NCBI RefSeq assembly: GCF_014161445.1
Contig: NZ_JABBXA010000016.1
Coordinates: 62,001-126,000, forward strand
Direction: 5' to 3'
DNA: 64,000 nt
From: Microbispora sp. H13382
GTDB lineage: Bacteria; Actinomycetota; Actinomycetes; Streptosporangiales; Streptosporangiaceae
Shown: positions 4,516 to 20,939 of the stretch, piece after piece
How the letters are laid out: each line of letters starts with the position of its first letter
Position numbering within the stretch: the stretch's first letter is position 1
Position numbers and translations under genes: made by a program
The notes under the pieces: generated by a model
What the model was told of the DNA's origin: nothing
The model's input: only the letters and a program-made list of their open reading frames with translations
The model's database searches: none

Positions 4516-5520
4516 TCACAGCCAGCCCCGGCGGGCGGCCTCCACCCCCGCCTGGAACCGGGACTGCGCCCCGAGCTCCGACATCGCCTCGGCGAACCTG
4601 GCCCGCACCGTGCGCACGGACACCCCGAGGTGGCGGGCGACGGCGTCGTCGGACAGGCCGTGGGCGGCCAGCCGTAGCACCTGCAGCACGCTGCTGTGCG
4701 GGGAGATCGGCGCGGCCCGGGCCCACAGCTCCTCGAACAGCGCCCGCAGCGCCCCCACCGCCACCGGAGCGTGGACCAGGTAGCAGTTGTAGGAGTGCTC
4801 GGGCAGCGGGACGCCCCACTCGGCGGGCAGCCCCGCGGCGCCGTCGCCCAGCGCGAAGAACCAGCTCGGCACCGCGTCGAGGGCACGCAGCCTCGCGCCC
4901 GCGGCGGAGAGCCGCCCGCACACCTCCCGTACGGCGGGCGAGGTCAAGGCGTCGAGCGTCACGACCATCCGCAGGCGCAGGATGCCGTCGGCGGCGGCCT
5001 GGAGCCACTGGCCGCCATATCCGTCCGCGAACCGGGCCATGGTCCGGTGGTCCGGCACGGCCATGACCAGCTCGGCGGGGGGCGCCTGCAGCGCGAGGCC
5101 GATCACGCTCTCGCACAGCTCGTCCGCACCGCTCATCGGCTCGACCGAGAACCGGCCGCTGCGCCAGTCGCGGCCGGCGTCGTAGTGATGGGCCAGGCGT
5201 CCGGCCGCGGCGAGCACCTCGTCGATCTGGCGGGTCTCCCTGGCCATGCGGTCCAGCCTCTCGGCCACCAGCCGTCCGATCGCCGCGGCCGGATGCCGCG
5301 CGAGGAACTCCTCCCGCCGCCGGTTCACCGCGCCGAGCCGTACGAGCTCGTCCAGGGCGTCGAGCACGTCCTCGGCGGGCCGGCCGACCGCCTCGGCCAG
5401 CTCCGTCAGCGTGGCGCGGTGCAGCCGCAGCATGGCGGTGTAGAGGGCCGCCTGGTCGGGGGAGAGCCCCAGGCTTTCGAGGGGGCCGGTCTGTGGATCG
5501 GCGTTGCGCGTCGTACTCAT
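4516..5520 (-). CDS. TrmB-like / LuxR-type HTH transcriptional regulator
   Basis: 334 residues. The N-terminal winged-helix segment (about residues 15-80: LSPDQAALYTAMLRLHRATLTELAEAV, with LDELVRLGAVNRR) is TrmB-like. The middle 200 residues form a ligand-sensing-like domain related to phospholipase D-fold regulators. The C terminus (about 270-330, GLSDDAVARHLGVSVRTVRARFAEAM) is a LuxR-type helix-turn-helix. This architecture is common in actinomycetes and its ligands are mostly unknown. ATG 5520 is chosen because GGAG lies 6 nt upstream; the longer open frame to 5832 runs through a 9-bp repeat array and is rejected. Confidence 0.82.
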   Translation of the reverse strand: MSTTRNADPQTGPLESLGLSPDQAALYTAMLRLHRATLTELAEAVGRPAEDVLDALDELVRLGAVNRRREEFLARHPAAAIGRLVAERLDRMARETRQIDEVLAAAGRLAHHYDAGRDWRSGRFSVEPMSGADELCESVIGLALQAPPAELVMAVPDHRTMARFADGYGGQWLQAAADGILRLRMVVTLDALTSPAVREVCGRLSAAGARLRALDAVPSWFFALGDGAAGLPAEWGVPLPEHSYNCYLVHAPVAVGALRALFEELWARAAPISPHSSVLQVLRLAAHGLSDDAVARHLGVSVRTVRARFAEAMSELGAQSRFQAGVEAARRGWL

Positions 5521-5534
5521 GCTCGCTCCGTCGG

Positions 5535-5620
5535 TGGTCACGCTGGTCGCACAGCGCTGATCACATTGCAGATCACATTGGCCGCAGTGGTCGCACCGGT
5601 CGCATTGGCCGCGCTGGTCC
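5535..5620. repeat. 9-bp direct repeat array in the regulator's leader
   Basis: About eight degenerate copies of TGGTCGCAY (for example TGGTCACGC, TGGTCGCAC, TGATCACAT, TGGCCGCAG, TGGTCGCAC, CGGTCGCAT), mostly head to tail with two small interruptions, directly upstream of the regulator start at 5520. Could be a multimer operator or a slippage-prone minisatellite. Confidence 0.6.
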
Positions 5621-5950
5621 ATGGGGCGAAAACGTTTCCCGGCGTCCGGCGCCCCGACTTCCGCCTCATCTCGCCTCGCTCCGCGTGAGAATAGCGCGGC
5701 TTTTCCTTGTTGTCCGTCCTGTTCACACATTCGGCCCGGTTGGATGTGGCGGCTTTTGTATGGATGTGAGTGATCGCATTTTGTTTCGGTCGCAGTTTCG
5801 AAAGCGCGAAATGCATCTTTGTGCAGTTGCACGTTACGCCATTGCGCATGGACGCTGTGTGACGCATCCTTGACTCAGCGTTAGCCGGGAACGCCGCGTC
5901 TGCCGGGCGCGGAGGGGGGCTCGACGGCGTGGCGGGCGCGACGCGCGGAA

Positions 5951-15678: not shown

Positions 15679-17439
15679 ATGACGGCGAGGATGGGCACGG
15701 CGCGACTCGGCCCGGCGGAACGCACCGCCGCCCTGGCGCGGATGGAGGCGCAGGAACTCGACGTGGTCGTGATCGGCGGCGGCGTGGTCGGCGCCGGCGT
15801 CGCGCTCGACGCCGTGACCCGAGGGCTCTCGGTGGGCCTCGTCGAGGCGCGCGACTTCGCCTCCGGCACGTCGTCCCGGTCCTCCAAGCTGATCCACGGG
15901 GGGCTGCGCTACCTGGAGCAGTTCAACTTCGACCTGGTCAGAGAGGCCCTGCGGGAGCGGGCCCTGCTGCTCAAGCGGATCGCGCCGCACCTGGTCAGGC
16001 CGGTGCCGTTCCTGTATCCGCTCACCCACGCGGGCTGGGAGCGGCCGTACATCGGCGCGGGGCTCGCGCTCTACGACACGCTCGGGCTGTCCTTCGGACT
16101 CACCCGGGGCGTGCCGGGGCACCGCCACCTGACCCGCCGCCAGGCCCTCCGGGTGGTCCCGTCGCTGCGGCGGTCGGCGTTCACCGGCGCCGTGCAGTAC
16201 TGGGACGCCCAGGTGGACGACGCCCGCTACGTGATGACCACGCTGCGCACCGCCGCGACGTACGGCGCGCACGTCGCCTCGCGGGTGCAGGCGGTCGGCT
16301 TCCTCCGGGAGGGGGAGCGGGTCACCGGAGTGCGCGTGTGCGACCTGGAGACGGGCGCGGAGCTGGACGTGCGGGCCCGCCAGGTCGTCAACGCGACCGG
16401 CGTGTGGACCGACGACATCCAGCAGCTCGTCGGCGGCCGGGGGCAGATCCACGTGCGGGCGTCCAAGGGCATCCATCTCGTGGTGCCGCGCGACCGCATC
16501 CACTCGCGCAGCGGCCTGATCATGCGTACCGAGAAGTCCGTGCTGTTCGTCATCCCCTGGGGACGGCACTGGATCATCGGAACCACCGACACCCGCTGGA
16601 ATCTGGACAAGGCCCACCCCGCCGCCTCCCGGGCGGACATCGACTACCTGCTCGACCGGGTCAACTCGGTGCTGTCGGTGCCGCTGACCAGGGACGACGT
16701 CGAGGGCGTGTACGCCGGGCTGCGGCCGCTGCTGGCCGGGGAGTCCGAGGAGACCTCCAAGCTCTCGCGCGAGCACGTCGTCGCCCACCCCGTGCCGGGG
16801 CTGGTCATGGTGGCCGGCGGCAAGTTCACGACGTACCGGGTCATGGCGGCCGACGCCGTGGACGCGGTCGCGCTCGGCCTCGACCAGCGCGTGCCGCCGT
16901 CGTGCACCGACCAGGTGCCGCTCGCCGGCGCAGAGGGCTACCAGGCCCTGTGGAACTCCCGCCATCGAATGGCGCGCGCCTCCGGGCTGCACGTGGCCAG
17001 GATCGAGCACCTGCTGGAGCGGTACGGCTCGCTCATCGACGAGGTGCTGGCGATCATCGAGCGCGACCCCTCGCTCGGCCGGCCCCTCGACGGCGCCGAC
17101 GACTACCTGCGCGCGGAGATCGTGTACGCCGCGACGCACGAGGGCGCCCGGCACCTCAACGACGCGCTGACCCGGCGCACCCGCATCTCGATCGAGACCT
17201 TCCACCGGGGTACCGCGGTCGCCCGGGAGGCCGCCGAGCTCATGGCCGGCCCGCTCGGCTGGGACGGCGAGCAGGTCAAGCGGGAGGTCGAGTACTACAC
17301 CAAGCGGGTCGAGGCGGAGCGGGCCTCCCAGGAGCAGGACACCGACCAGGAGGCCGACGCCATCCGCCTCGGCGCGCCGGAGATCGTCCCCGTCGCGCCC
17401 CCGCGTGACCTCGCGAAGTCGCGGGGCACCGGGAACTGA
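15679..17439 (+). CDS. glpD: Aerobic glycerol-3-phosphate dehydrogenase
   Basis: 586 residues. This FAD enzyme oxidises glycerol-3-phosphate to dihydroxyacetone phosphate at the membrane and passes electrons to quinone. The N terminus carries the FAD motif DVVVIGGGVVGAGVALDAV, then SSKLIHGGLRYLE, a glycine-rich WGRHWIIGTTDTRW segment, and a C-terminal helical domain ending near residue 550. Length matches the long actinobacterial type. AAGGAG lies 5 nt before ATG 15679. No glpF or glpK is adjacent. Its stop is only 3 bp from the left 21-bp repeat of the following ATPase unit. Confidence 0.95.
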   Translation: MTARMGTARLGPAERTAALARMEAQELDVVVIGGGVVGAGVALDAVTRGLSVGLVEARDFASGTSSRSSKLIHGGLRYLEQFNFDLVREALRERALLLKRIAPHLVRPVPFLYPLTHAGWERPYIGAGLALYDTLGLSFGLTRGVPGHRHLTRRQALRVVPSLRRSAFTGAVQYWDAQVDDARYVMTTLRTAATYGAHVASRVQAVGFLREGERVTGVRVCDLETGAELDVRARQVVNATGVWTDDIQQLVGGRGQIHVRASKGIHLVVPRDRIHSRSGLIMRTEKSVLFVIPWGRHWIIGTTDTRWNLDKAHPAASRADIDYLLDRVNSVLSVPLTRDDVEGVYAGLRPLLAGESEETSKLSREHVVAHPVPGLVMVAGGKFTTYRVMAADAVDAVALGLDQRVPPSCTDQVPLAGAEGYQALWNSRHRMARASGLHVARIEHLLERYGSLIDEVLAIIERDPSLGRPLDGADDYLRAEIVYAATHEGARHLNDALTRRTRISIETFHRGTAVAREAAELMAGPLGWDGEQVKREVEYYTKRVEAERASQEQDTDQEADAIRLGAPEIVPVAPPRDLAKSRGTGN

Positions 17440-17442
17440 CCC

Positions 17443-17463
17443 TCAGGCGAAGGGGATCCACGC
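17443..17463. repeat. Left copy of 21-bp direct repeat bounding the ATPase gene
   Basis: Identical to 18999-19019 (begins TCAGGCGAAGGGGATCCAC). On the - strand it encodes the ATPase's last residues RAWIPFA and its stop. Confidence 0.95.
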
Positions 17464-18936
17464 GCGGCCGTACAGTGCCGGCAGGTCCACGAGGAGGACG
17501 GCAGGGTCTCGCGCCGCCTCGGCCCGGAGGTCGTCGTCGAAGCCGGCTCCGCTGTAGCAGGCCAGTACGGTTCCGGAGGTGTCGTAGCCCTTCGCCGACA
17601 GCAGGTCGCGGGCCCGGCGAAGGCGCTCCAGATGGCGCATGCCCATGAGCTTGTCCCACTTGGCCTCGCCCAGGGACCTGACAGCCCGGGGCTCGCCGGG
17701 ATAGGCGGGGCCGAGGACGGCCACGTCCACGTCGATCTGCGTCCTGGCCACGGGGTCGGCCACCGTGCCGGCCGCGACCTCGCCGATGCCGCCCTCGCCG
17801 AAGTGCTCCCGGCCGTGGCGCAACGCGTACTCCCGGCAGAGGGTCTCGAAGTGCGGCCCCATCACCTTCGACAGGAAGCGCTGACGGGAGCGCCGCCAGA
17901 CTTCCTCGGCGAGGCCGAGGCCGAGGTCCGACCACTCCGGACGCATGATGGCCTGGTAGAAGGTGATGAGCGGCTCCGCGATCCGGTACCGCGTCCGTCC
18001 CGGCCGGAAGGCGTCCTTCTCCCTGACCAGCAGCCCGCAGTCCTCCAGGACGTTGAGCGGATGGGCGATGTCGGAGGACTTGTACCCGATGTGACCGGCG
18101 ATGCCGCCCCAGGTGTTGTTCCCCGCCGCGACCGCGGAGAGAACCGAGTGGTAGAGGGCGGGGTCGCGGATGTCGGGCTCTTCCGCGAGCAGGTAGCGCC
18201 CTTCCCGGAAGAGCGACGTTCTCCGGTCGAGGACCGTATGGACCACCCATCGGTCGAAGTCCTCGACCGACTCCGGCCGGTCACCCAGCACGAACTCGTC
18301 CCGATAGGCCGGGGTGCCGCCGACGACCGCGTGGAGCATCGCCGCCAGGCGAGGGTCGTCCTGCACGCCCCAGAACTCTGCGGCGTCCCGGTAGGACAGC
18401 GACTGGATCACGAGCTCCAGGCGGGCCCGGCCCCGTAGCGGCGCCTGCCCGGAGAGGATCTTGCCCATGACCGACAGTGCGGAGCCGCAGATCAGCACCC
18501 GCGCGTTGCTCGCGCCTCCGTGCGTGCGGCCGCGCAGGTCGATCTCCTGCTTGAGAATGGACGGCAGAGCCGGGTTCGCCTTCATCAGATACGGGAACTC
18601 GTCGATGATCAGCGGTGTCGGACCGTCTTCGGCCAGCGAGAAGAAGAAGGTGAGCGCGTCCCGCCAGTCCGCGAACGGGTAGCCCACCGGGGAGCCGGTG
18701 TGTCTGGCCAGGGCCATGCCGAACAGGCGGAGCAGCTCGATCTCCGTGCCTTCCGTCGCCTCGAAGTAGAAACCACCGAGAGCCTCGGCCAGGTTCTTGA
18801 GCAGAAATGTCTTTCCCTGCCTGCGGCGGCCGCTGACGACGCCGAAGGCCACCTCCGCCTGGGTGCCGGTCGCGAAGGACGTCAGCGCCTCCCACTCCCA
18901 GGTCCGGTCGAAGATGTGTCCCGGTTTGGCCACCAT
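17443..18936 (-). CDS. AAA+ ATPase with C-terminal PD-(D/E)XK-like (DUF234-type) domain
   Basis: 497 residues. Residues about 1-230 form an archaeal-type ATPase domain with Walker A GRRRQGKT (near residue 36), Walker B PLIIDEFPYL and a sensor-like ICGSALSVM. A winged-helix stretch follows (about 260-320, GGIAGHIGYKSSDIAHPLNVLEDCGLLVREK). The C-terminal part has TQIDVDVAVLG followed by SLGEAKW, the D...ExK pattern of the PD-(D/E)XK nuclease fold. Proteins of this build are widespread and often multicopy, with no settled function. The last residues RAWIPFA are shared, base for base, with the neighbouring beta-propeller gene: the gene ends inside a 21-bp direct repeat. No partner gene is present. 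Confidence 0.85.
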   Translation of the reverse strand: MVAKPGHIFDRTWEWEALTSFATGTQAEVAFGVVSGRRRQGKTFLLKNLAEALGGFYFEATEGTEIELLRLFGMALARHTGSPVGYPFADWRDALTFFFSLAEDGPTPLIIDEFPYLMKANPALPSILKQEIDLRGRTHGGASNARVLICGSALSVMGKILSGQAPLRGRARLELVIQSLSYRDAAEFWGVQDDPRLAAMLHAVVGGTPAYRDEFVLGDRPESVEDFDRWVVHTVLDRRTSLFREGRYLLAEEPDIRDPALYHSVLSAVAAGNNTWGGIAGHIGYKSSDIAHPLNVLEDCGLLVREKDAFRPGRTRYRIAEPLITFYQAIMRPEWSDLGLGLAEEVWRRSRQRFLSKVMGPHFETLCREYALRHGREHFGEGGIGEVAAGTVADPVARTQIDVDVAVLGPAYPGEPRAVRSLGEAKWDKLMGMRHLERLRRARDLLSAKGYDTSGTVLACYSGAGFDDDLRAEAARDPAVLLVDLPALYGRAWIPFA

Positions 18937-18952
18937 GAGCGATCACCCCGCC

Positions 18953-18985
18953 ACTGAAATACGGTTCGCTTAACCGTATTTCAGT
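18953..18985. promoter_or_regulatory. 14-bp perfect inverted repeat upstream of the ATPase gene
   Basis: ACTGAAATACGGTT (18953-18966), loop CGCTT, AACCGTATTTCAGT (18972-18985). It lies 16 bp upstream of the ATPase start, is AT-rich against its surroundings and travels within the repeat-bounded unit. It may be an operator bound by the ATPase's own winged helix, or a recombination end. Confidence 0.8.
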
Positions 18986-18998
18986 AGCAGGTGCGTCG

Positions 18999-19019
18999 TC
19001 AGGCGAAGGGGATCCACGC
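18999..19019. repeat. Right copy of 21-bp direct repeat, at the 3' end of the beta-propeller gene
   Basis: Identical to 17443-17463, spacing 1,556 bp. It supplies the stop and last codons of the beta-propeller gene; similarity continues weakly a few bases further into that gene. Confidence 0.95.
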
Positions 19020-20939
19020 CCGGTCGGCGAGCGTGGCCGCGTCGCTGACCTTGAGGCCGCCGTCGGACAGGGTCCACAGGTCGTCGCCGATGACGAGGGA
19101 ACGGCGGATGCCCTGGTCGGCGGGGGCGAAGTCGCTCCTGGCGGGCTGCCGCGGGTGGCTGACGACGCCCAGCTTGGTGATCTCACGGTCGCCCACCCGC
19201 AGGGCGAGGGCCGAGCTGCCCGCGATCCCGCCGTCGGCCCAGTTCGCGAGCGGGAGTACGGCCAGCCCGGTGGCGGGCCAGTAGAGGAAGGCATGCGGGT
19301 CCCACTCGGCCTCGGAGCCGGACTGCTCCTGGTGGAACCGCGACAGCACGGCGGGCGCGGCCGGGTCGGCGACGTCGAACAGCGAGATCTGCGTGCCGAG
19401 CATGCGGCCCTCCCCGCTCGCCTCCTGGCCGATGCCGATCAGCCGCCCCTCGCCCGCCGGGTGGAGATAGGCGGAGAAGCCGGTGATCTTCAACTCGCCG
19501 GTGACCTTCGGCGCGGCCGGGTCCCGCAGGTCCAGCGCGTACAGGGGGTCGGTCTGGCGGAACGTCACCACGTAGCCGAGGCCGTCCATGAACCGGACCG
19601 AGTAGATCCGCTCGCCCCTGCCGAGGCCCGTCACCGAGCCGGTTTGTGCGAGTGTGCCGGCGTCGAGCACGTACACGCCGCTCTCGCTGCCGCCCGGGCT
19701 CGCGCCGAACACCTCCGCGCCGCTGGTCGTCGCCACCCGCAGATGGCCGTCGTACTCCGACAGGGAGTACTGGTTCAGCAGCCGGCCCGGCACCGATCCG
19801 GAGGTGACGTAGCGCGGGGCGCCGGGGGCGGAGACGTCGAAGCGGTGCACCTCCGTGCGCTCGGGTGGCGCCTGGGGCGTGGCGGCCGAGGCGTCGGGCA
19901 TCGGCACCACGTCGACCGGGCGGGCCGCCCACCAGCGGGGATTGCTGGTGACGTAGAGGCTGCCCGCGGCGCCGTACACGGTGTCCCCGTCGGCCGCGAC
20001 CGCGATCGGGGTGAGTGAGCCGAACGGCGTGGCGGCGGCCAGATCGATCGTGTGGACGGTCAGCATCGAGGTGCCGGTGAACTGCTCGGGGTGGCTGACC
20101 CGGTCGCAGCCGACCCGCTCGGTGCGGCTCGCGCCGCCGGACTCGACGTCGTACGACGGCAGCCACGCGTCGGCGGGGGCGGACAGCACGGCCTGACGGT
20201 TGCCTTCGAGCAGATCCTTGTCCGGCTCGTTCTGCTTCGGCGCCGGGAAGGCGATCGCCGGCTGGGACCGGACGACGAGCCGCACCGTGGAGCCGGTCTG
20301 CCGGGCGTCGACGTGCTGCCCCCGCACGGTCATCGCGCCGAGGACGCGCGGCTCGCCGGACAGGTCCACGAGCACGTATCTCGGGCCGCCGGGACCGACC
20401 CCGGTCTTGGCCGTCGCCCCGAACGGGATGATCCCGCCGCCCTGGAACAGCACGAGCGCGCGGTCGCCGTGGACCAGCAGGTCGGCCTGGGCCCACGACT
20501 GGTCCTCGGCGACGAGACGCAGCGTTCCGGTGACCTTCCGGCTCCTCGCGTCCACGACGCGCAGCACGCCTCTCGTGACCGTGATCACCCGATTGCCGTC
20601 GGTCTTGACCAGGTCGGGCTCGTCCACACCCGCCTCGTGCGTGTTCGTGGTCGAGTGCGACGGCTGCTCGGACGTCGCCTCCTTGGCGGCGGCGACGTCG
20701 GATCGGGCCGCGAAGAGCATGTTCTCCCCGAAGCCCCAGGGGGTCACGTTCCGCGCGGCCGCCTGCCGTAGCCCTTCGGTCAGCTCGTCACAGTCGGTGT
20801 AGGCGACGAGCCGCACCTTGCCGGTCAGGTCGGCCGGAGAGGGCGGGAAGTCCTGTGCCGTACGGCCACCCGCGCAGCCCGTGGCTCCCGTGGCCAGCAG
20901 CGCGGCGAGAACGCCCGCCGTACGAATCGATGTCCTCAT
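18999..20939 (-). CDS. Secreted beta-propeller domain lipoprotein
   Basis: 646 residues. The N-terminal signal peptide (MRTSIRTAGVLAALL, then ATGATGC) ends in a lipobox-like cysteine near residue 22, predicting an extracellular lipoprotein. The rest matches the family of secreted proteins with a C-terminal beta-propeller domain. Typical stretches are DEPDLVKTDGNRVITVTRG near residue 110, RIYSVRFMDGLGYVVTFRQTDPLYALDLRDPAAPKV-like blades, and FSAYLHPAGEGRLIGIGQEASGEG near 490. Function is unknown. The C-terminal SDAATLADRAWIPFA looks native to this family, so the shared tail probably originated here. It is divergent from the TetR gene. Confidence 0.88.
   Translation of the reverse strand: MRTSIRTAGVLAALLATGATGCAGGRTAQDFPPSPADLTGKVRLVAYTDCDELTEGLRQAAARNVTPWGFGENMLFAARSDVAAAKEATSEQPSHSTTNTHEAGVDEPDLVKTDGNRVITVTRGVLRVVDARSRKVTGTLRLVAEDQSWAQADLLVHGDRALVLFQGGGIIPFGATAKTGVGPGGPRYVLVDLSGEPRVLGAMTVRGQHVDARQTGSTVRLVVRSQPAIAFPAPKQNEPDKDLLEGNRQAVLSAPADAWLPSYDVESGGASRTERVGCDRVSHPEQFTGTSMLTVHTIDLAAATPFGSLTPIAVAADGDTVYGAAGSLYVTSNPRWWAARPVDVVPMPDASAATPQAPPERTEVHRFDVSAPGAPRYVTSGSVPGRLLNQYSLSEYDGHLRVATTSGAEVFGASPGGSESGVYVLDAGTLAQTGSVTGLGRGERIYSVRFMDGLGYVVTFRQTDPLYALDLRDPAAPKVTGELKITGFSAYLHPAGEGRLIGIGQEASGEGRMLGTQISLFDVADPAAPAVLSRFHQEQSGSEAEWDPHAFLYWPATGLAVLPLANWADGGIAGSSALALRVGDREITKLGVVSHPRQPARSDFAPADQGIRRSLVIGDDLWTLSDGGLKVSDAATLADRAWIPFA

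Follow-up and report, generated by a model that had tools for sequence, protein, structure and literature searches.

A solitary ATPase gene lying between two convergent genes in Microbispora sp. H13382 is best explained, with a probability of roughly 0.6, as a compact one-gene unit that was inserted at a staggered break between these genes, joined there by host end joining, and retained for its own function. To our knowledge, the recombinase-free movement of solitary genes between genomes, single-gene defence systems among them, is an open problem. In the family to which this ATPase belongs, the limits of the unit can be defined, sites with and without the ATPase can be compared, overlapping genes are left whole by the target duplications, and scars are present, so that such movement becomes testable. 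The interesting question is whether the unit's own nuclease makes the insertion break; should the protein prove to move itself, this would establish a new kind of mobile element and tie ATPase-nuclease defence candidates to genome mobility.

The ATPase gene and the direct repeat that flanks it

In the window, that is the whole stretch of 64,000 nucleotides that was analysed, the ATPase gene (17443..18936, minus strand; 497 aa as it stands) is located between glpD (15679..17439, plus strand), its convergent neighbour across the insertion, and a beta-propeller gene (PF09826; 18999..20939, minus strand), the host gene whose 3' end is duplicated. Positions 17443-17463 and 18999-19019 are identical over 21 bp, both being TCAGGCGAAGGGGATCCACGC; the match stretches to 24/25 nt with one mismatch and to 28 nt at 93%, and the two copies start 1556 bp apart. 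The right copy of this 25-nt direct repeat (18999..19023, minus strand) constitutes the final codons and stop of the propeller gene. The left copy (17443..17467, minus strand) repeats the propeller 3' end distally, 3 bp away from the glpD stop, and now encodes the C terminus of the ATPase, whose ORF ends RAWIPFA-stop as the propeller gene does. The 21-bp identity, the positions of its two copies and the shared C-terminal residues had been described in a first-pass annotation made from the sequence alone, and direct reading of the sequence agrees with it.

The direct repeat is real and beyond chance. Indeed, the best ungapped repeat between the 200 bp upstream and the 250 bp downstream of the ATPase gene scores 22 in the window, whereas 2998 of 3000 mismatched flank pairings score at most 20 (the other two, possibly with homologous flanks, score 54), and of 410 control genes taken from these loci only one reached 19, with none higher. 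Base composition, which the first pass had named as a possible pointer, is by itself not telling, the unit being slightly low in G+C (0.689, the window as a whole having 0.729; a lower value occurs in 27 of 625 windows).

A direct repeat containing the 3' end of its target gene would also be left by the remnant of a site-specific integrative element whose tyrosine recombinase had been lost, a reading that is very improbable. Only a single ATPase ORF with its palindromic promoter region lies between the two copies, as the first pass had remarked in finding no recombinase there, and there is no room for an integrase in the gaps of the two intact relatives at this site. Furthermore, the repeats found at three sites have no common core (by eye) and differ in length. 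A fixed att-like core is not supported, the duplications differing in both length and sequence. An integrase-type element was also rejected on the grounds that the ATPase is the sole ORF between the repeats and that its Pfam matches include no recombinase.

The genome that carries the window (G000; 8.7 Mb, 70 contigs) harbours a second intact family member, 57% identical, at C44:100192-101652, beside a gene assigned by eye to the LytR/CpsA type, as well as two partial family copies, at C12:559838-560452 and C44:468478-469146.

Filled and empty junctions in Microbispora

Among 15 Microbispora genomes, the propeller/glpD junction carries an intact ATPase gene in three (G000, M. triticiradicis G014 and M. 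amethystogenes G001), an internally deleted remnant in two (G006 and G013) and no ATPase in ten, as expected from the insertion into a tight convergent junction that had been suggested. In the window's group, the ATPase-free junctions show either TGA-3 bp-TCA or a slight gene overlap, those of the outgroups G004 and G007 being longer (both by eye), and the repeat is present as a single copy in the ten empty relatives. Around the ATPase, the second copy is retained in M. amethystogenes (downstream copy, 21/22) and is degenerate in M. triticiradicis and G013. When the M. amethystogenes flanks are compared with the empty junctions of G009, G008 and G011, 26-27 bp of target are found to have been used twice; the M. 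triticiradicis flanks overlap by 32-33 bp relative to the same three junctions and that of G002. Comparison of the M. amethystogenes flanks with the other seven of the ten empty junctions gives values from -9 to +79 bp and no 26-27-bp overlap, because these junctions have changed too much. A 26-27-bp target duplication of the propeller 3' end at this site is therefore well supported.

In the two intact relatives at the site, the ATPase ends LYGRA or LYGRD ahead of the repeat. The RAWIPFA tail emphasised by the first pass is present in the window copy but is not native, and it is found on no other ATPase among the 127 family entries. LYGR(A/D) is the ATPase's own C terminus, and the tail of the window copy results from a later local deletion that ran into the repeat, its length being put, by eye from the relatives, at about 25-40 bp. 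That the tail is instead ancestral to the ATPase, its likeness to the propeller gene being coincidental, is the least credible of all readings: nothing was found in its favour, the WIPFA ending occurs in 1 of 127 entries, and the two intact relatives at this site have the second repeat copy outside the ATPase gene.

In a tree built from propeller and glpD sequences, in which some inner nodes are weak (40-79), the occupied clades {G000, G006} and {G014, G001, G013} are separate, and G011, G012 and six other genomes are empty. The unit therefore either entered this spot twice, or entered it once and was then lost, exactly, several times. The single insertion fits slightly better, because the left spacer is shared (by eye) and the divergence of the ATPase is near-vertical: within Microbispora, 46/288 fourfold sites differ in the ATPase (0.16) versus 79/363 in glpD (0.22; p 0.038, range 0.02-0.04). 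A recent transfer inside Microbispora, which had been considered on the basis of protein identity (ATPase 95-96%, propeller 84-85%), was dropped after this fourfold-site comparison.

The same data bear on an improbable alternative, in which Campbell-type homologous recombination integrated a circle that bore the ATPase together with a duplicate of the propeller 3' end, and same-site copies then spread by homologous recombination. Two separate clades, between which empty species fall in the tree, have the unit at one site and in one orientation; this would suit it, as would an ATPase fourfold-site divergence slightly below that of glpD; however, one ancestral insertion with losses through the repeat fits the pattern equally, and Campbell-type integration leaves unexplained the first insertion, the unrelated sites elsewhere and a reversed copy in Sphaerimonospora. 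In Sphaerimonospora thailandensis, an ATPase 92% identical occupies the same gap in the opposite orientation. A small toxin-antitoxin-like gene pair (by eye) lies between the ATPase and the propeller gene in Sphaerimonospora (L049:5480-6200).

The protein and its putative defence role

On sequence grounds, the protein is an archaeal-type ATPase with a winged helix and a conserved PD-(D/E)XK motif that matches PDC-S27, a phage-defence candidate of PADLOC. It exceeds the gathering cut-off of Pfam ATPase_2 (PF01637; 34.3 versus 33.2 bits) and matches the PDC-S27 profile PDLC04984 over residues 8-369 (E 9.3e-16). The AAA+/STAND-type part carries a Walker A motif, GRRRQGKT, which alignments place at residues 36-43 (18808..18831, minus strand). 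An AlphaFold2 model (mean pLDDT 84.9), built from 15 sequences of which L059, L060 and L063 are incomplete at their C termini, has PABY2304 of P. abyssi (PDB 2qen; TMt 0.67) as its best structural match, followed by ORC/Cdc6, Apaf-1 and NLR-type proteins. In the C-terminal part, the span E364 ... D404 ... E424-x-K426 (17659..17847, minus strand) is nearly invariant in 123 family members (E364 99%, D404 99%, E424 100%, K426 95%); from these residues and from the order of strands and helices in the model, we read this part as PD-(D/E)XK nuclease-like.

PDC-S27 is described as an ATPase fused to PD-(D/E)XK; in the portion of the source available, hits to ATPase-nuclease defence candidates are reported from thousands of archaeal and bacterial genomes, and most such candidates still await validation (PMC12988326). 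The window gene shows both the profile match and, by motif conservation and model, the fusion itself, so that the first-pass suspicion of a single defence-like gene combining an ATPase, a winged helix and a nuclease-like part is upheld. Judged only from the candidate profile, its function is probably defence against phages or plasmids. Furthermore, dN/dS is 0.08-0.17 in 11 pairs and 0.08-0.16 in the eight same-site pairs; between copies at one site, such purifying selection points to a useful gene, probably involved in defence, rather than to a purely selfish one.

Limits of the unit, spread and transfer

Family matches at E <= 1e-150 occur in 63 of the 250 genomes sampled from the host's family and in 24 of 68 genera. 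Fragments and duplicate loci having been dropped earlier, three further duplicate or truncated entries were removed and 127 family entries were kept. Four members with internal stops were left out of the conservation, neighbour, palindrome and flank-pair counts, and loci with short flanks were also left out, the repeat scan using 124 loci, the neighbour counts 115 (113 with both neighbours), the palindrome counts 122 and the flank pairs 118.

These 118 entries include 266 pairs with at least 75% amino acid identity. With flank homology sought on both strands over up to 3000 bp, 69 pairs have common flanks, 4 have inverted ones only and 193 have none (a one-strand count over 1200 bp gave 201/266); the figure of 193 is an upper limit, because it includes L009/L012 and L010/L012, which clustering puts at one locus. 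In the 193 pairs, the common DNA starts at a median of -45 from the start codon, never beyond -77, and, counted from the stop codon, its end has a median position of -8 and reaches +29 at most. Non-coding flanks also decay, so that the informative pairs are the ones with at least 90% nucleotide identity: L087/L091, L017/L090 and L018/L090, which lack flank homology, and, as a fourth, L090/L101, 94.8% identical with a common stretch from -74 to +31. Clusters at 80% amino acid identity or more comprise 13, 10, 8, 7 and 6 members at 4, 6, 5, 6 and 5 sites, respectively, under a stricter same-locus rule, and clusters of 7, 4, 3 and 3 members are each confined to one site.

A compact one-gene mobile unit, made of a palindrome-promoter and one ORF, is well supported by these sequence comparisons; the mobile module presumed at first pass is borne out by the compact limits in the 193 pairs and by transfer between genera. 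Family members stand alone at unrelated positions in other genomes, and next to those copies that were inspected in detail no known DNA-moving enzyme was found. Fourfold-site differences between G001 and G156 reach 0.19 in the ATPase versus 0.48 in glpD (p 4e-14), and between G014 and G156 0.25 versus 0.49 (p 4e-10). Three Microbispora differ from Sphaerimonospora by 0.22-0.25 in the ATPase versus 0.40-0.43 in glpD (p about 1e-6 to 4e-6), the window copy differing from S. thailandensis at 61/274 sites versus 132/332 (p 3e-6). Transfer of the ATPase between genera is clear in these two cases, which correspond to 5 of the 87 pairs tested; the other 82 give no strong transfer signal, and in most of them the divergence of the ATPase is about equal to that of glpD or larger. 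A search of viral_contigs with two peptide patterns found no ATPase relative. Four distant matches (26.7-27.8% identity) were found among phage proteins at E <= 1e-10, and 111 among plasmid records at E <= 1e-20, none of which reaches 60% identity (the highest being 51.6%).

The palindrome in front of the gene

A palindrome with 14-bp perfect arms (18953..18985), absent from the first-pass annotation, is centred about 33 bp upstream of the ATPase start codon, near the left limit of the mobile unit. Across the family, an inverted repeat with a score of at least 8 precedes the ATPase in 87 of 122 loci, its centre mostly near -33, versus 1/122 shuffled and 3/120 control stretches. With up to 3 mismatches allowed, the pattern occurs in one place in G000; five genomes of G156's genus together have it in five places, of which four precede an ATPase gene and one is solo. 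Because of this distribution, the palindrome is most likely an operator of the ATPase gene itself. Arms of 19-25 bp occur upstream of L048, L051-L053, L056 and L075; their sequence varies between species and mostly remains complementary, which would point to arm correction or covariation and to more than a simple operator. A solo palindrome with 24-bp perfect arms, without ATPase, lies beside an aldehyde dehydrogenase 3' end at L158:5129-5179 (about +2171 to +2221 from the ATPase start). It is possibly the footprint of a departed unit.

The palindrome is central to a less likely possibility, that of a self-moving minimal element, in which the winged helix would bind the unit's own palindrome, the PD-(D/E)XK domain would cut there and at 3'-3' junctions, and the unit would transpose or home, host repair finishing the joints. 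A strong palindrome at a fixed place in most loci, unit limits close to the palindrome and the stop codon, and nearly invariant nuclease and Walker residues would all suit such an element. Yet no cleavage, excision product or circle is known, and the strong purifying selection in same-site copies is that expected of a host-useful gene.

Repeats, neighbours and scars at other sites

Long direct repeats are rare and known from three, perhaps four, independent sites. Flank-repeat scores of at least 19 were obtained for 3/124 loci (two independent sites) versus 1/410 control genes, with no more than 13 in 121/124; this is no clear enrichment, and these data do not establish target duplication as a general feature. 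The control gene of L139 (oriented coordinates 4567-5862) has an exact 19-nt direct repeat, ATAAACCTTAATAAGGAGG, on both sides. The first pass had foreseen that copies elsewhere would be flanked by a repeat of the adjacent 3' end, which proved true of a few loci but not of most. The fully independent case is L102 in G027, where convergent MFS and CCA-adding genes flank the ATPase and a 66-bp repeat is present (85% identity, core 40/41); in G016, without ATPase there, these two genes overlap by 68 bp, and the repeat thus lets each of them keep a 3' end in G027. At L013 in G007, a repeat of about 50 bp, derived from the 3' end of a convergent HxlR gene, encloses the ATPase together with a cyclase gene (49-bp overlap; 53-65 alignment columns at 78-81%); this junction also gains and loses a PIN/Phd toxin-antitoxin pair. 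L158 is messy, the aldehyde dehydrogenase 3' end being copied near both sides of the ATPase and the solo palindrome lying by that gene.

When genes are called by a simple codon-based method, the upstream neighbour has its 3' end towards the unit in 83/113 loci. Placement at a convergent junction concerns 44/113 loci versus 78/345 control pairs, the loci not being independent. An acetoacetyl-CoA synthetase-like 3' end (named by eye) adjoins L013, L020, L027, L058, L051-L053, L075 and L085 in several genera; two ATPase subfamilies, the PIN/Phd pair and the cyclase gene come and go there, and it looks like a hotspot of gene turnover.

Remnants mark the loss of the ATPase, as judged from sequence, at the glpD/propeller site and at another site. 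At one site in one genus, remnants differ in size (L229 in G180, L230 in G120 and L232 in G207; by eye), G180 retaining about the last 25 bp of the ATPase and the two others internal remnants. G180 was dropped as an empty site for L068, since this retained end makes it a deletion scar. For L105, the relative G207 has only the upstream flank in common, and the flank search for L018 matched a paralogous family and gave no clean empty site.

Several of these observations could also speak for self-movement: remnants at several sites recall a homing cycle, the copying of the aldehyde dehydrogenase 3' end beside the ATPase accompanies the L158 solo palindrome, the unit lies in opposite orientation within the same gap in Sphaerimonospora, and it seems to have moved past one neighbour in L114/L108 and L013/L027. 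The ATPase indeed lies on different sides of one neighbour in L114 and L108, although comparison of L114 with the 7-bp junction of L108 revealed no obvious duplication, the genomes being distant. However, such apparent moves are equally explained by insertion of the neighbour (a toxin-antitoxin pair is involved in L013/L027), duplication lengths vary and are mostly undetectable, and most pairs of the two clusters tested show about equal divergence in the ATPase and in glpD. Self-movement is possible, and host repair probably accounts for the insertion.

A proposed route of insertion

Under the preferred reading, a unit made of a palindromic promoter/operator and one ORF would have entered the short propeller-glpD gap in a Microbispora ancestor. 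The incoming linear gene would have been joined into a staggered break at the 3'-3' gene junction and the overhangs filled in, most likely through host end-joining repair; staggered break, fill-in and joining are proposed because the duplications vary in length. Fill-in would yield duplications of about 26, 50 or 66 bp, and both neighbours would keep their 3' ends. Its own function, probably that of an NTP-switched DNA-binding nuclease in phage or plasmid defence, would then have led to the retention of the gene, which would be controlled through its own palindrome and would often be lost again.

More tentatively, the family could represent a new class of one-gene mobile element, whose protein would recognise its own palindrome, whose nuclease would free the palindrome-to-stop unit, and which would insert at 3'-3' junctions with duplication of 25-70 bp and survival of the neighbours, a defence nuclease and a transposition machine thereby being combined in one ORF. 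This is doubtful at present. The available part of the open-access literature yielded no description of mobility for this ATPase family.

Comparison with known systems

Insertion sequences are small one-gene units with a target duplication. Unlike them, the window unit has neither a transposase profile nor inverted repeats at both ends, and its duplication is variable and mostly undetectable. Indeed, no transposase profile of Pfam, NCBIfam or PHROGs matches the window gene; none of the 25 longest of the 69 inverted pairs listed joins the ends of the unit, the marked palindrome being at one end; and instead of a fixed-length target duplication, lengths of 26-27, about 50 and 66 bp were observed, with most loci showing none above background. 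Integrative elements inserting at gene 3' ends generate a direct repeat of the 3' end of the target gene, a trait common to both, but the window unit, of only 1.5 kb, has no integrase or constant core. Free-standing homing endonuclease genes, each consisting of one nuclease gene in an intergenic spot, undergo gain, decay and loss; the window family differs from them by its ATPase, the palindrome in front, many unrelated loci, duplications at some sites, and no known target cut. Homing would spread one allele within a locus and lower its divergence relative to the flanks, for which the Microbispora fourfold-site values are 0.16 in the ATPase and 0.22 in glpD (p 0.02-0.04).

As for the protein, the best structural match is the PF01637 ATPase_2 protein PABY2304 (2qen), which has 350 residues, versus 497 residues including a C-terminal nuclease-like domain for the window protein. 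Although a compact insertion unit, target duplication and operator palindrome are absent from the available part of its description (PMC12988326), PDC-S27 resembles the window gene in being a single gene that encodes an ATPase fused to PD-(D/E)XK and that has a scattered distribution.
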